A DNA stretch of 64,000 nt. It comes from Pelomonas sp. Root405. GTDB lineage: Bacteria; Pseudomonadota; Gammaproteobacteria; Burkholderiales; Burkholderiaceae_C. The stretch is from the NCBI RefSeq assembly GCF_001425165.1, contig NZ_LMDU01000013.1, positions 248,001-312,000 on the forward strand, written 5' to 3'. Shown piece after piece: positions 3,105 through 18,289 of this stretch (its first letter is position 1; every line of letters begins with the position of its first letter). Below the pieces are notes generated by a model that ran no database searches, was not told where the DNA came from, and saw nothing but the letters and a program-made list of their open reading frames with translations. A program made the translations under genes and the position numbers.

Positions 3105-3191
3105 TGGTGCGCGGGGCCGGACTCGAACCGGCACGCCCGTGAAGGCGTCAGGACCTAAACCTGGTGCGTCTACCAATTTCGCCACCCGCGC
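3105..3191 (-). tRNA. tRNA-Leu (anticodon TAG)
   Basis: 87 nt including the encoded CCA (complement of 3105-3107). Acceptor arms GCGCGGG/CCCGCGC pair exactly. The D-arm GGCGAAATTGGTAGACGC, a long variable arm typical of a class II tRNA, and the T-loop GGTTCGAGTCC are all visible. The anticodon loop TTTAGGT gives TAG, which reads CUA and CUN leucine codons. The outermost anticodon-stem pair is C-A. This tRNA reads the CTA codons used in the leader peptide at 17384-17440. Confidence 0.95.
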
Positions 3192-14048: not shown

Positions 14049-15590
14049 TCAGCCCTGCGCGGCGACGCGCTCGGTCTTGCTCTGCAGCTTGTTCAGCGCA
14101 GAGAGATAGGCTTTGGCGGACGCGACGACGATGTCCGGGTCGGCGCCAACGCCGTTGACCACCCGCCCGGCGTGCTGCAGGCGCACCGTCACCTCGCCCT
14201 GCGACTCGGTGCTGCCGCCGGTGATGGCGTTGACCGAGTACAGCAGCATCTCGGCGCCCGACTCGGCCACGGATTCGATGGCACGCAGCGTTGCATCAAC
14301 CGGCCCGTTGCCGTCGCTCTCGGCGCGGTGCTCCTGATGGCCCATCGCGAAGACGATGGCCGCGTGAGGGCGCTCACCGGTCTCGCTGCGCTGGGACAGC
14401 GACAGCAGGCGGTAGTGCTCCTGCTCGGCGGTGACCGATTCGTCCATGACGAGGGCAATGATGTCCTCGTCGAAAATCTCGTTCTTGCGGTCGGCGAGGT
14501 CCTTGAAGCGCTGGAAAGCCGCGTTGACCTCGGCCTCACTCTCCAGCTGAATACCCAATTCCTGCAGCCGCGCCTTGAAGGCGTTGCGGCCGGACAGCTT
14601 GCCCAGAACGATCTTGTTCGCAGCCCAGCCGACATCCTCGGCGCGCATGATCTCGTAGGTGTCACGCGCCTTCAGCACGCCATCCTGGTGGATACCGCTC
14701 GCATGCGCAAACGCGTTGGCACCAACAACGGCCTTGTTGGGCTGCACGACGAAGCCGGTCGTTTGCGACACCAGCTTGGAGGCCGGCACGATCTGCGAGG
14801 TGTCGATGCCAATGTCCAGTCCGAAATAGTCGCGGCGCGTCTTGACGGCCATGACAACTTCTTCGAGCGAGCAATTGCCGGCGCGCTCGCCAAGGCCATT
14901 GATGGTGCATTCCACCTGGCGCGCGCCGCCGATCTTCACGCCGGCCAGCGAGTTGGCGACCGCCATGCCGAGGTCGTTGTGGCAGTGCACGCTCCAGATC
15001 GCACGGTCAGAGTTGGGCACCTTCTCGCGCAGGCGGCGGATGAAGTCGCCGTACAACTCGGGGATGCCATAGCCGACCGTGTCAGGGATGTTGATCGTGC
15101 CGGCGCCTTCCTTGATGACGGCCTCGCAGACGCGGGCCAGGAAGTCGATGTCGGAGCGGTAGCCGTCTTCCGGTGAAAACTCGATGTCGCCACACAGGTT
15201 GCGCGCGAAGCGCACGGCCAGCGTCGCCTGCTCCAGCACCTGCTCGCGCGTCATGCGCAGCTTCTTCTCCATGTGGAGTTCGCTGGTGGCGATGAAGGTG
15301 TGGATGCGTGCGTTGCTGGCGCCGGCAAGGGCCTCGGCGGCTCGCGCGATATCGCGGTCGTTGGCGCGCGCCAGTGAGCAGACGGTGCTGTCCTTGATAG
15401 CTGCGGCAATGGCCTTGACGGCTTCGAAGTCGCCATTGCTCGACGCTGCAAAGCCGGCCTCGATGATGTCGACCTTCATGCGCTCCAACTGGCGGGCTAT
15501 GCGCATCTTCTCTTCGCGCGTCATAGAGGCGCCGGGCGACTGCTCGCCGTCTCGCAGCGTGGTGTCGAAGATGATCAGCTTGTCGGTCAT
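14049..15590 (-). CDS. leuA: 2-isopropylmalate synthase, type 1 (LeuA)
   Basis: First committed step of leucine synthesis: acetyl-CoA plus 2-oxoisovalerate. 513 residues, the size of the E. coli-like (type 1) enzyme. The HMGL-like barrel starts with [13 protein letters not shown]; metal-binding HCHNDLG and the [11 protein letters not shown] stretch follow, and the C-terminal LeuA allosteric domain ends the protein. Its ATG overlaps the stop of the upstream, different 2-isopropylmalate synthase (ATGA at 15587-15590), so the two are translationally coupled. Confidence 0.95.
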
Positions 15591-17275
15591 CGCAGGTTCT
15601 CCTCTCGAATTTGCGGCACGGTGACCGGCGCGCGCGCCAGGCCGGACAGGATGGCCTGCATGGACGCACGCACGATGCTGCCATCAATGCCGACGCCATG
15701 GCGCGTCACATCACCAACGCGCAGTTCCAGATACGCCACGGCGCGCGCATCGGCGCCGCTGCCGATGGAGTGTTCGTGATAGTCGAGCACGCGCACTTCC
15801 GTCCCGAGGCGGGCCGACAGCGCATCGACGAAGGCGTCGATAGGGCCGTTGCCCTGGCCTTGCACATGGCCCACCCAGCCGCCCAGCACGACCTCGGCCG
15901 ACAGGCGCATCGCGCCGCCCGCTACTTCGGTCATCTGCGGCTGCACGACCGATGCCGCTGCGTCGCCGATGCCGTACTCGCGCTCGAAGATGGCGTAGAG
16001 GTCGGCGGCAGTCAGCTCCTTGCCGCTGTCGTCCATAACGGCCTGCACGACTTGGCTGAACTCGATCTGCAGTCGCCGCGGCAGCTCAAGCCCGTACTCG
16101 GTCTCCAGCAGGTAGGCGATGCCGCCCTTGCCGGACTGGCTGTTCACGCGGATGACGGCGTCATAGCTGCGACCGAGGTCCTTGGGGTCGATGGGGAGAT
16201 AGGGCATGTCCCAAATCTCGCCGTCCTTGCGCGCCGCGAAGGCTTTCTTGATCGCGTCCTGGTGCGAGCCGGAGAAAGAGGTGTAGACGAGGTCGCCGAC
16301 GTAGGGGTGGCGCGGGTGCACCGAGATCTGCGTGCAATGCTCGACACAGCGGCGCACCTCGTCGATGTCGGAGAAGTCGAGCTGCGGGTCCACGCCCTGC
16401 GTGTAAAGGTTCAGCGCGATGTTGACCAGGTCGACATTGCCGGTGCGCTCGCCATTGCCGAACAGGCAGCCTTCGACGCGATCGGCACCCGCCATCAGCG
16501 CGAGCTCGCCAGCCGCCGTGCCCGTGCCGCGGTCGTTGTGCGGGTGGACGGACAGCACGATGGCATCACGGCGCTCGAGGTTGCGGTGCATCCACTCGAT
16601 CATGTCCGCGAAGATGTTCGGTGTGCTGTGCTCGACGGTGGATGGCAGGTTGATGATGCACTTGCGCTCGGGCGTGGGCTCCCACACCGCCGTCACCGCA
16701 TCGACGACGCGCTTGCTGAAGGCCAGTTCAGTGCCAGAGAACATTTCGGGCGAGTACTCGAAGCGCCAGTCGATGCCGGGGCGCGCGGCGGCCAGCTCCT
16801 TGATCTGGCGGGCATGCGAAGCCGCCAGTTCCACGATGCCGTCCTCGTCCTGGCCCAGCACGACACGGCGCATGATGGGCGCGACAGCGTTGTAGACGTG
16901 CACGATGACGCGCCGGGCGCCGTCCAGAGACTCGAAGGTGCGCTCAATCAAGTGCGAGCGCGCCTGCGTCAGCACCTGGATGCTCACGTCATCGGGGATG
17001 TGGCCGCCCTCGATGAGCAGGCGCACGAAGTCGAACTCGGTCTGCGAGGCCGATGGGAAACCGACCTCGATCTCCTTGAAGCCGATCTTCACCAGTTGCT
17101 GGAACATGCGCAGCTTGCGGGTGATGTCCATCGGCTCGATCAGCGCCTGGTTGCCGTCGCGCAGGTCGGTGCTCAGCCAAATCGGCGCACGGGTCAGCAC
17201 GGCGTCGGGCCAGCGGCGGTCCGGCAAGGTGATGGGCGCAAAGGCGCGGTACTTCTGCTGCGGTTGCTTCAACAT
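15587..17275 (-). CDS. leuA: 2-isopropylmalate synthase, type 2 (long LeuA)
   Basis: Same reaction as the downstream gene but the long, yeast/actinobacteria-like type. From ATG 17275 ([12 protein letters not shown], the family N-terminus) it is 562 residues. Visible motifs are [11 protein letters not shown] (catalytic Arg-Asp), [10 protein letters not shown] (metal-binding His) and [12 protein letters not shown], and then a C-terminal regulatory domain. The frame is open to 17344, but that region is the attenuator hairpin. Expression is probably controlled by the leader peptide and terminator at 17316-17440. Confidence 0.95.
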
Positions 17276-17315
17276 GGTTTCCATCCGAGGGTGGGTGGCG
17301 CAACCAGCAGCCTTG

Positions 17316-17354
17316 AAAACACGAACGGCCCGCTGCGGTTGCATACGGGCCGTT
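17316..17354 (-). terminator. Transcription attenuator upstream of the leuA pair
   Basis: Perfect 9-bp stem aacggcccg / cgggccgtt (17324-17332 with 17346-17354), 13-nt loop, followed on the minus strand by GTTTTC. It lies between the Leu-rich leader peptide stop and the leuA start, the classic position of a leucine attenuator. A small competing stem GAACC-ACG-GGTTC lies inside the end of the leader reading frame. Confidence 0.75.
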
Positions 17355-17383
17355 GGGGTCAGATTGAGCGTGCGCGCGGCTGA

Positions 17384-17440
17384 CTAGCGAACCCGTGGTT
17401 CCTCTAGGGCTAGTAGCAGGCTAATGCTGGCGCAACTCAT
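17384..17440 (-). CDS. leuL: leu leader peptide (18 residues)
   Basis: Short reading frame ATG...TAG encoding MSCASISLLLALEEPRVR. Four of five residues at its centre are leucine, encoded CTG CTA CTA (GCC) CTA. CTA is very rare in a GC-rich genome, so ribosome stalling would report Leu-tRNA(UAG) charging. The stop is 30 nt before the terminator stem. The ribosome site is weak. The reading is direct from sequence; the attenuation role is inferred from the standard leuL/trpL arrangement. Confidence 0.75.
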   Translation of the reverse strand: MSCASISLLLALEEPRVR

Positions 17441-17464
17441 GGGGCTGGAATCTAGCATGAAAGC

Positions 17465-18289
17465 CTACTGATGCAAGCCACGTTCATCGGGCTCGTCCGT
17501 GCTCGTGGAGATGACGCTGACCGGCTTGCCCTTGTACTTCCGCCAGCCGTAGATCACATAACCCGACAGCCCATAGACGCAGAAGATCACGAACAACACT
17601 GTGGGCGGGTCGAGTGCGATGAGGCCGATGCCCAGCATGATGGCCACCAGCACGATGAAGGGCACGCTGCGCCGCCTGTCGAACACTTTGAAGCTGTAGA
17701 AGGGCGCATTCGTGACCATCGAAAGCCCGGCGAACAAGGTCACGCCAAACGCTGTCCAGCGCAGCCAGGGCATGTTGCCGACGCCGGCATACCAGGGCGC
17801 ATCGACCGCGCACCAGATCAGGCCCATGACGATGGCGGCGGCGGCGGGACTTGGCAGGCCCTGGAAAAAGCGTTTGTCGACGACGCCGATATTGACGTTG
17901 AAGCGCGCCAGCCGCAGCGCCGCGCCGGCGATGTAGACGAAGGCGGGAATCCAGCCCGGCTTGCCCACGTCCTTGAGCGCCCACATGTAGACGATGAGGG
18001 CGGGCGCGGCACCGAAGGCGACCATGTCGGACAGGCTGTCCATCTGCTCGCCGAAGGCCGACTGCGTGTTGGTCATGCGCGCGACACGGCCGTCCAGGCT
18101 GTCGAGCACGGCGGCCGCGAAGATCGCCACACAGGCCGTCTCGAAGCGGCCGTTCATCGCCATGATGATGGCGTAGAAGGCACTGAACAACGCGGCCAAC
18201 GTGATCGCGTTCGGCAGGGCGTAGATGCCTTTGCGGCGGGGTCGGACGGCGATGCTGGGCTCGTCGTCCTCGATGGGTTCAGGCGTCAT
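17465..18289 (-). CDS. pssA: CDP-diacylglycerol--serine O-phosphatidyltransferase (PssA)
   Basis: Integral membrane enzyme making phosphatidylserine, precursor of phosphatidylethanolamine. 274 residues from ATG 18289. The CDP-alcohol phosphatidyltransferase signature D-G-x2-A-R-x8-G-x3-D-x3-D is visible in SLDGRVARMTN...GEQMDSLSD. About eight hydrophobic helices. It sits between ilvC and the leuA pair, a conserved Burkholderiales arrangement, although its product has no role in amino acid synthesis. Confidence 0.93.
   Translation of the reverse strand: MTPEPIEDDEPSIAVRPRRKGIYALPNAITLAALFSAFYAIIMAMNGRFETACVAIFAAAVLDSLDGRVARMTNTQSAFGEQMDSLSDMVAFGAAPALIVYMWALKDVGKPGWIPAFVYIAGAALRLARFNVNIGVVDKRFFQGLPSPAAAAIVMGLIWCAVDAPWYAGVGNMPWLRWTAFGVTLFAGLSMVTNAPFYSFKVFDRRRSVPFIVLVAIMLGIGLIALDPPTVLFVIFCVYGLSGYVIYGWRKYKGKPVSVISTSTDEPDERGLHQ

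Follow-up and report, generated by a model that had tools for sequence, protein, structure and literature searches.

A predicted leucine attenuator with a probably leaderless leader peptide upstream of leuA genes in Pelomonas and related Burkholderiales

In a 64,000-nucleotide stretch of the genome of Pelomonas sp. Root405 (hereafter the window), two adjacent leuA genes on the minus strand are very probably controlled by a ribosome-mediated, leucine-sensing attenuator, whose leader peptide would be encoded at the 5′ end of a leaderless or nearly leaderless mRNA. This reading is drawn from sequence and comparison with relatives, namely from a short reading frame with rare leucine codons, a hairpin, an alternative pairing with one covarying pair, the spacing between a −10 box and the ATG of the frame, and the lack of a Shine-Dalgarno sequence. 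Along the minus strand, the order is TGCTAGATT, 8 nt, the ATG, the frame for MSCASISLLLALEEPRVR with its stop codon, a spacer, AACGGCCCG-loop-CGGGCCGTT, the tail TTCGTGTTTTC, and the leuA ATG at 17275. The features are as follows:

17471..17476, minus strand: −35-like TTGCAT, 16 nt before the −10 hexamer and within the last pssA codons; weak
17449..17457, minus strand: extended −10 box TGCTAGATT (hexamer 17454-17449), 8 nt before the leader ATG
17384..17440, minus strand: leader peptide frame MSCASISLLLALEEPRVR, no Shine-Dalgarno sequence, predicted transcript start at or just before its A
17405..17419, minus strand: regulatory Leu codons CTG CTA CTA (GCC) CTA, read from the sequence
17390..17396, minus strand: antiterminator outer arm ACGGGTT, in the leader codons Pro-Arg-Val; from folds and alignment
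17380..17384, minus strand: antiterminator inner arm GTCAG; from the fold only
17358..17362, minus strand: antiterminator inner arm CTGAC; from the fold only
17345..17351, minus strand: antiterminator outer arm GGCCCGT, overlapping the terminator 5′ arm; from folds and alignment
17324..17354, minus strand: terminator hairpin with a 9-bp stem, arms AACGGCCCG (17354-17346) and CGGGCCGTT (17332-17324)
17315..17325, minus strand: U-rich tail TTCGTGTTTTC, modest, its first two T being part of the stem
15587..17275, minus strand: leuA, yeast-type 2-isopropylmalate synthase (TIGR00970, 760.5 bits, cut-off 697.4)
14049..15590, minus strand: second leuA, bacterial-type 2-isopropylmalate synthase (TIGR00973, 691.4 bits, cut-off 598.7)

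An earlier note on this DNA had placed the element in front of two 2-isopropylmalate synthase genes, and both exceed the cut-offs of their models. We took the ATG at 17275, 48 nt 3′ of the terminator stem, as the start of the first gene. The two leuA frames share 4 nt (15587-15590), and co-transcription of both genes is therefore likely. Upstream lies pssA (TIGR00473), which ends at 17465, 24 nt before the leader, and further upstream are frames that we take to be ilvC and ilvN/ilvB; inspection by eye of the stretch before ilvB in the window gave nothing convincing of the same design. The tRNA-Leu(TAG) gene that the note had brought in as support is indeed present at 3105-3191, but at a distance of 14 kb it does not serve as evidence.

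The leader frame runs from its ATG at 17440-17438 to a TAG at 17386-17384, and its four Leu codons begin at 17419 (CTG), 17416, 17413, and 17407 (all CTA), confirming the frame of four leucines, three of them CTA, from which the note had started. CTA is as rare as the note had supposed: it makes up 19 of the 1662 Leu codons (1.1%) in 36 long reading frames of the window, as compared with three of four in the leader, and on that usage the chance of at least three CTA among four is about 6e-6. Only the leader frame and its own upstream-ATG extension, among 399 ATG frames of 12-30 residues in the window, combine a Leu cluster with at least three CTA codons. CTA also makes up 72 of the 124 Leu codons in the leaders of 28 relatives. 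A longer leader beginning at the in-frame ATG at 17458 was considered and rejected; a matching ATG is found in only 5/28 loci, and it sits within the extended −10 box.

The 9-bp stem claimed for the terminator stands and is conserved, whereas the T-run turns out weaker than had been claimed, being only TTCGTGTTTTC, and the terminator is missed by a mechanical scan that asks for 5 T in 8. A promoter scan of the region found no promoter, both scans weighing against the reading, and the leader folds only moderately better than its shuffles (z = −1.68); the case is carried by conservation, not by fold energy. Across 27 distinct sequences, 98.4% of the cells of the terminator helix are paired and 7/9 pairs are invariant; the pairs hardly vary and show no covariation, as expected because one arm serves two partners. 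The terminator 5′ arm GGCCCG can indeed pair either with the 3′ arm CGGGCC or with ACGGGTT in the leader, so that the antiterminator that the note had proposed to look for by folding the leader RNA is found.

This alternative pairing was taken from folds that end before the terminator 3′ arm; the pairing GGGUU/GACCC returned by RNAalifold is compatible with the terminator and was rejected as the switch. In the 27 distinct aligned sequences, the outer helix ACGGGTT/GGCCCGT is 95.2% paired, as compared with 24-48% when slid by 1-3 columns, and the inner helix GTCAG/CTGAC appears when the leaders of the window and of close relatives are folded. The outermost pair of the outer helix is A-U in 19 sequences, U-A in 4, G-C in 2, and unpaired in 2; its six double changes fall on the third base of a Pro codon, from which it follows that the pairing, not the peptide, is kept. 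The innermost U-G pair is broken in 6/27. Covariation of the antiterminator is thus confined to one pair, and two of five whole-structure covariation measures (pairs with a double change, further pair types) are not above shuffles, as expected because one pair carries the signal. When a ribosome stalled on the Leu run was simulated, at least 5/7 terminator-arm bases were hidden in 28/28 folds, and with a ribosome at the stop codon the terminator formed in 28/28; with mononucleotide-shuffled spacers, 52% of the stalled-ribosome folds still hide the terminator arm, and folding alone is therefore weak, supporting evidence only.

The element would then work as follows. The −10 box would place the transcript start on the leader AUG or no more than one or two nucleotides from it, and a ribosome could load the moment the 5′ end emerges. 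With ample Leu-tRNA, this ribosome would reach the stop codon and cover ACGGGTT, leaving GGCCCG to pair with CGGGCC, and transcription would end before leuA. If the Leu-tRNA that reads CTA runs short, the ribosome would instead stall in CTG-CTA-CTA-Ala-CTA and leave ACGGGTT free to pair with GGCCCGT, helped by GTCAG/CTGAC; with the antiterminator in place no terminator would form, and both leuA genes would be made.

Much of the evidence comes from relatives, 58/60 of which gave a match in a search with LeuA. The 30 best loci (L001-L030), which carry the LeuA type of the window and were fetched through the gene alone, bear out the conservation of frame and stem that the earlier note had put forward as its test: 28/30 keep both the Leu-rich frame and the CGGCCCG...CGGGCCG hairpin, 27 of them in the window's own family (f1) and one (L027) in family f10, and the hairpin is absent from L029 and L030, which belong to other families. 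The attenuator layout is thus supported both by this conservation and by the alternative pairing. Eight further f1 genomes (L084-L091) all have a Leu-rich leader, which precedes the bacterial-type leuA in seven and the yeast type in one (L091); one genome, G022, carries both leuA types, and there the copy beside the match to the covariance model described below was examined. By eye, their hairpins have the GGCCCG/CGGGCC core or a close variant, such as GCCCG/CGGGC in L087 and L088. G035, which completes the 36 f1 genomes, has no LeuA match and a weak match to the same model (4.6e-4).

That model, R1, was built from 22 sequences, 21 of them from f1, and it matches 354/399 genomes and 129/141 genera of the family, a count that therefore reflects detection rather than independent proof. 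Across the order it matches 23/399 genomes; the 15 strong matches comprise 11 of 12 f1 genomes and four of f10, and the other eight are candidate matches with E values from 4.5e-4 to 0.009. In 80 named LeuA loci R1 is strong in ten, all before leuA (Roseateles, Paucibacter, Variovorax, Polaromonas (2), Pseudacidovorax (2), Xylophilus, Comamonas, and Ottowia); at E up to 1 it gives 16 rows, that is, these ten, four weak antisense copies of the same hairpins, and two weak rows in L181. Rfam, in turn, yields only tRNA above the gathering threshold in the whole window, three chance, non-leader matches at E up to 10, and no match in 20 related loci.

Where the transcript begins is indicated by a TANNNT box, which lies 6-8 nt before the leader ATG in 35/35 f1 loci found through the leuA gene (8 nt in 19, 7 nt in 12, and 6 nt in 4); it should be noted that 20 of the 36 family genomes behind these loci are of one genus, so that the counts are non-independent and represent far fewer than 35 events. 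The box has a TGn extension in 33/35 loci, and a pyrimidine directly precedes the A in 34/35, as compared with a background, at the other same-strand ATGs in these loci, of 30/1859 (1.6%) for the box and 1/1859 for its TGn-extended form. Shine-Dalgarno potential was scored as the strongest duplex that the 18 upstream nt can form with the anti-Shine-Dalgarno sequence; one of −5 kcal/mol or better is found at 0/35 leaders, at 21/27 leuA starts, and at 16% of random sites. No convincing −35 box was found, the best match beginning with TTG in only 11/35 family loci. By established promoter geometry, a −10 box at such a distance sets the start at the A or no more than one or two nucleotides from it. 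The transcript thus probably begins at or just before the leader AUG, making the leader peptide leaderless, and ribosomes would therefore load without the usual binding site.

In 44 loci matched by R1, a set that is partly circular because R1 picked it and that shares a few genomes with the 35, the box lies at 6-8 nt in 37 (including L076 and L127, where the spacing was read by eye), at 9 nt in two, and at 10 nt in four (L044, L126 from Variovorax, and L128 and L131 from Pseudacidovorax); no clear leader start was identified in L133 from Ottowia. Leaders with 9-10 nt spacing may have one to three untranslated bases. L128, in addition to its 10-nt spacing, is the sole locus of the 44 with a Shine-Dalgarno-like sequence (GGAG, −5.8), a possible drift away from leaderless initiation.

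The same element could be a leucine attenuator without being leaderless, if it were carried on a longer transcript (read-through from ilv-pssA, or a promoter further upstream) and translated by non-canonical internal initiation. Any read-through transcript would cross the site, given that pssA ends 24 nt before the leader; the −35 box is unconvincing, and six of the 44 R1-matched loci have the −10 box at 9-10 nt, one of them with the Shine-Dalgarno-like match. We nevertheless regard this as unlikely in view of the 35 f1 loci, all with the box at 6-8 nt and none with a Shine-Dalgarno sequence, and of L024 and L027, which keep the spacing even though their upstream sequence is, by eye, unlike the end of pssA. 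A far more prosaic reading, in which an ordinary pssA terminator happens to follow a chance short frame and leuA has an independent promoter further down, would account for a hairpin ∼110 nt after pssA and for the modest fold z-score; the rare-CTA Leu run, the −10 box, and the covarying antiterminator are, however, kept in relatives, and the element is kept also where a different leuA type is downstream, which makes that reading exceedingly improbable.

It is also conceivable that an attenuator of the leaderless kind has a product acting in trans, with the terminated leader RNA of ∼120 nt or the peptide acting elsewhere as well. The layout matches that of rnTrpL, the 5′ end of which is reported to be the ATG of the leader reading frame (PMC7298713). 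The N-terminal half of the peptide is, however, poorly conserved among relatives, and a trans-acting role seems quite improbable to us.

The design recurs at other genes. In the window's own genome, a DAHP synthase gene has the leader MSRAAFFSFWFFPRPGGGES behind TGCTAGATT at 8 nt and a terminator AACCGCCGGGC...GCCCGGCGGTTTTTTT, the 5′ arm of which can, by eye, pair with the leader bases CCCGGCGGT. In 24/24 f1 genomes sampled, an aromatic leader with its box at 6-9 nt precedes the DAHP synthase copy that scores higher, and no such leader is found at the second copy in 12/12 examined; of eight DAHP loci scanned outside f1, two have leader and box, one has a leader without the box, and five have neither. 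The leader loci are L264 (G000:C15:122392-123191), L054, L209-L215, L217-L224, L226, L228-L233, and L274, and a terminator was seen in the three sequences inspected (L054, L222, and L264). These leaders, such as MSRAAFFSFWFFPRPGGGES and MQARTSFYFYFWFSSPAEER, mix Phe, Tyr, and Trp codons. At trpE, 11/15 f1 loci scanned (one of which was ended by a contig end) have a Trp leader with the box at 7 nt (one locus) or 9 nt (ten loci), and we predict these to be near-leaderless Trp attenuators. They are of the MFITRKYITGSSDRGAWPWRRW type, and TACACT mostly precedes their ATG by 9 nt (L249-L251, L253, and L257-L263).

Leucine leaders are likewise found outside the family. Of 24 genomes of the order sampled outside f1, one gave no match to LeuA and another, G044 of f10, carries the element in its f1 form. 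The other 22 comprise 14 in which a −10 box precedes the ATG of a Leu-rich frame by 6-9 nt and eight without such a frame in the stretches examined. None of the 14 leaders has a Shine-Dalgarno duplex better than −2.7 kcal/mol. They end in LLLRPAR or looser Leu/Arg-rich variants, and no clear U-tract terminator was seen at them by eye. A DNA pattern for the LLLRPAR end, blind to the promoter, hits 50/399 genomes of the order (a reversed control gave 2 hits). Thirty pattern loci were fetched, three of them from genomes counted in the 14; a leuA motif follows closely in 27, a leader frame with a box 6-9 nt before its ATG is present in 27, and both are present in 26. One hit, L278, with neither leuA motif nor leader frame nearby, is probably due to chance. 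The loci with such leaders are L030, L093, L096-L103, L105-L107, L112, L280-L292, and L295-L307.

Leaders of this non-family type, such as CTGCTGCTGCGCCCCGCGCGC, often end in a small GCGC hairpin, and the sequence past their stop codon is rich in C and poor in G; with no clear U-tract terminator, attenuation there is possibly Rho-dependent. In L102, the conserved leader end is broken by a stop codon while the GCGCC...GGCGC hairpin is intact, which points to selection on the RNA rather than on the end of the peptide. Frames were also listed, in a search restricted to those with a TANNNT box, in Pseudomonas and Halopseudomonas (L142, L146, and L148), where a leuA leader of the type MNTYHTLILLRQHANLCLVSQRLRG begins 7 nt after the box, and in Massilia, Oxalobacteraceae, Herbaspirillum, and Duganella (L134, L136, L139, and L140), where Leu-rich frames such as ..ALALAGLLLPA lie 6-7 nt after the box and before a yeast-type leuA.

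The persistence outside the family of a leaderless-type Leu leader with another C-terminus and no evident U-tract terminator suggests that the sensing frame predates the device for termination. More broadly, we think it rather likely that amino acid attenuators in Burkholderiales generally use leaderless leader peptides, a design extending to leuA, to one DAHP synthase (Phe/Tyr/Trp), and, less exactly, to trpE, in which a −10 box would place the start on or beside the leader AUG and the first ribosome would load while the 5′ end is leaving the polymerase. For attenuation to work, the polymerase must not pass the hairpin until the first ribosome has engaged the leader, and a leader that starts at its own first nucleotide would be a simple solution, as well as a natural assay for leaderless initiation in proteobacteria. 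Were the general design true, it would take the place of ribosome loading through a Shine-Dalgarno sequence as in the enteric model, and termination would be the default for transcripts that read through from upstream genes, since the leader on these goes untranslated. The element is family-wide, compact (about 130 nt), and without an Rfam match, and the presence in this genome of a sister element with another amino acid specificity makes the predictions testable side by side.

Leader-peptide attenuation is classical. In Escherichia coli and other enterics, the leuL attenuator (Rfam Leu_leader) has a leader peptide with Leu codons and mutually exclusive antiterminator and terminator structures, and it controls leuA. 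The element in the window shares these traits but differs from leuL in having no Rfam match, no Shine-Dalgarno sequence, and a predicted start at the AUG, and in controlling a yeast-type together with a bacterial-type leuA. A 2004 comparative study of proteobacterial attenuators (Vitreschak et al.) is said to cover attenuators of this sort and may list some of these elements. In the parts of the literature searched, we found no description of a leu leader from Burkholderiales. Leaderless transcripts with a TA-rich box directly upstream are reported from the mapping of start sites in Burkholderia cenocepacia, but we saw no leu leader named there, and neither 'leuA' nor 'attenuat' occurs in the main text (PMC4603805); the main text of a survey of premature terminators likewise contains neither 'leuA' nor 'leucine' (PMC2965389).

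Among leaders described elsewhere, that of Campylobacter jejuni LeuL, with five Leu codons, all rare, and a short terminated RNA before leuABCD, was found through a ribosome binding site search and belongs to the Epsilonproteobacteria (PMC3847290). The actinobacterial LEU element also has a Leu-run leader frame before leuA, but is described as a pseudoknot whose base stem joins the Leu run to the Shine-Dalgarno box of leuA (PMC1262725); that pseudoknot is conserved and there is no intrinsic terminator, whereas here there are a terminator hairpin and an antiterminator. Closer in their start are the leaders of Streptomyces lividans, several of which are reported to be leaderless, including leuL1 before leuA and leuL2 before leuS (PMC8079986); leaderless Leu-run leaders before leucine genes, here a prediction, are common to both, and leuL2 has a hairpin and U stretch, but S. 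lividans belongs to the Actinobacteria and leuL1 lacks a typical terminator (PMC8079986). In Sinorhizobium meliloti, the 5′ end of rnTrpL/trpL is reported to coincide with the leader ATG, and rnTrpL and the peptide peTrpL also act in trans (PMC7298713). Both are thus proteobacterial attenuators starting at the leader ATG, a start that is reported there and only predicted here, and rnTrpL differs in that it concerns Trp and trpE(G) in an alphaproteobacterium (PMC7298713). Taken against these systems, the attenuator in the window is of a kind already known, and what would be novel is its leaderless, multi-operon aspect, which we put forward as a prediction.
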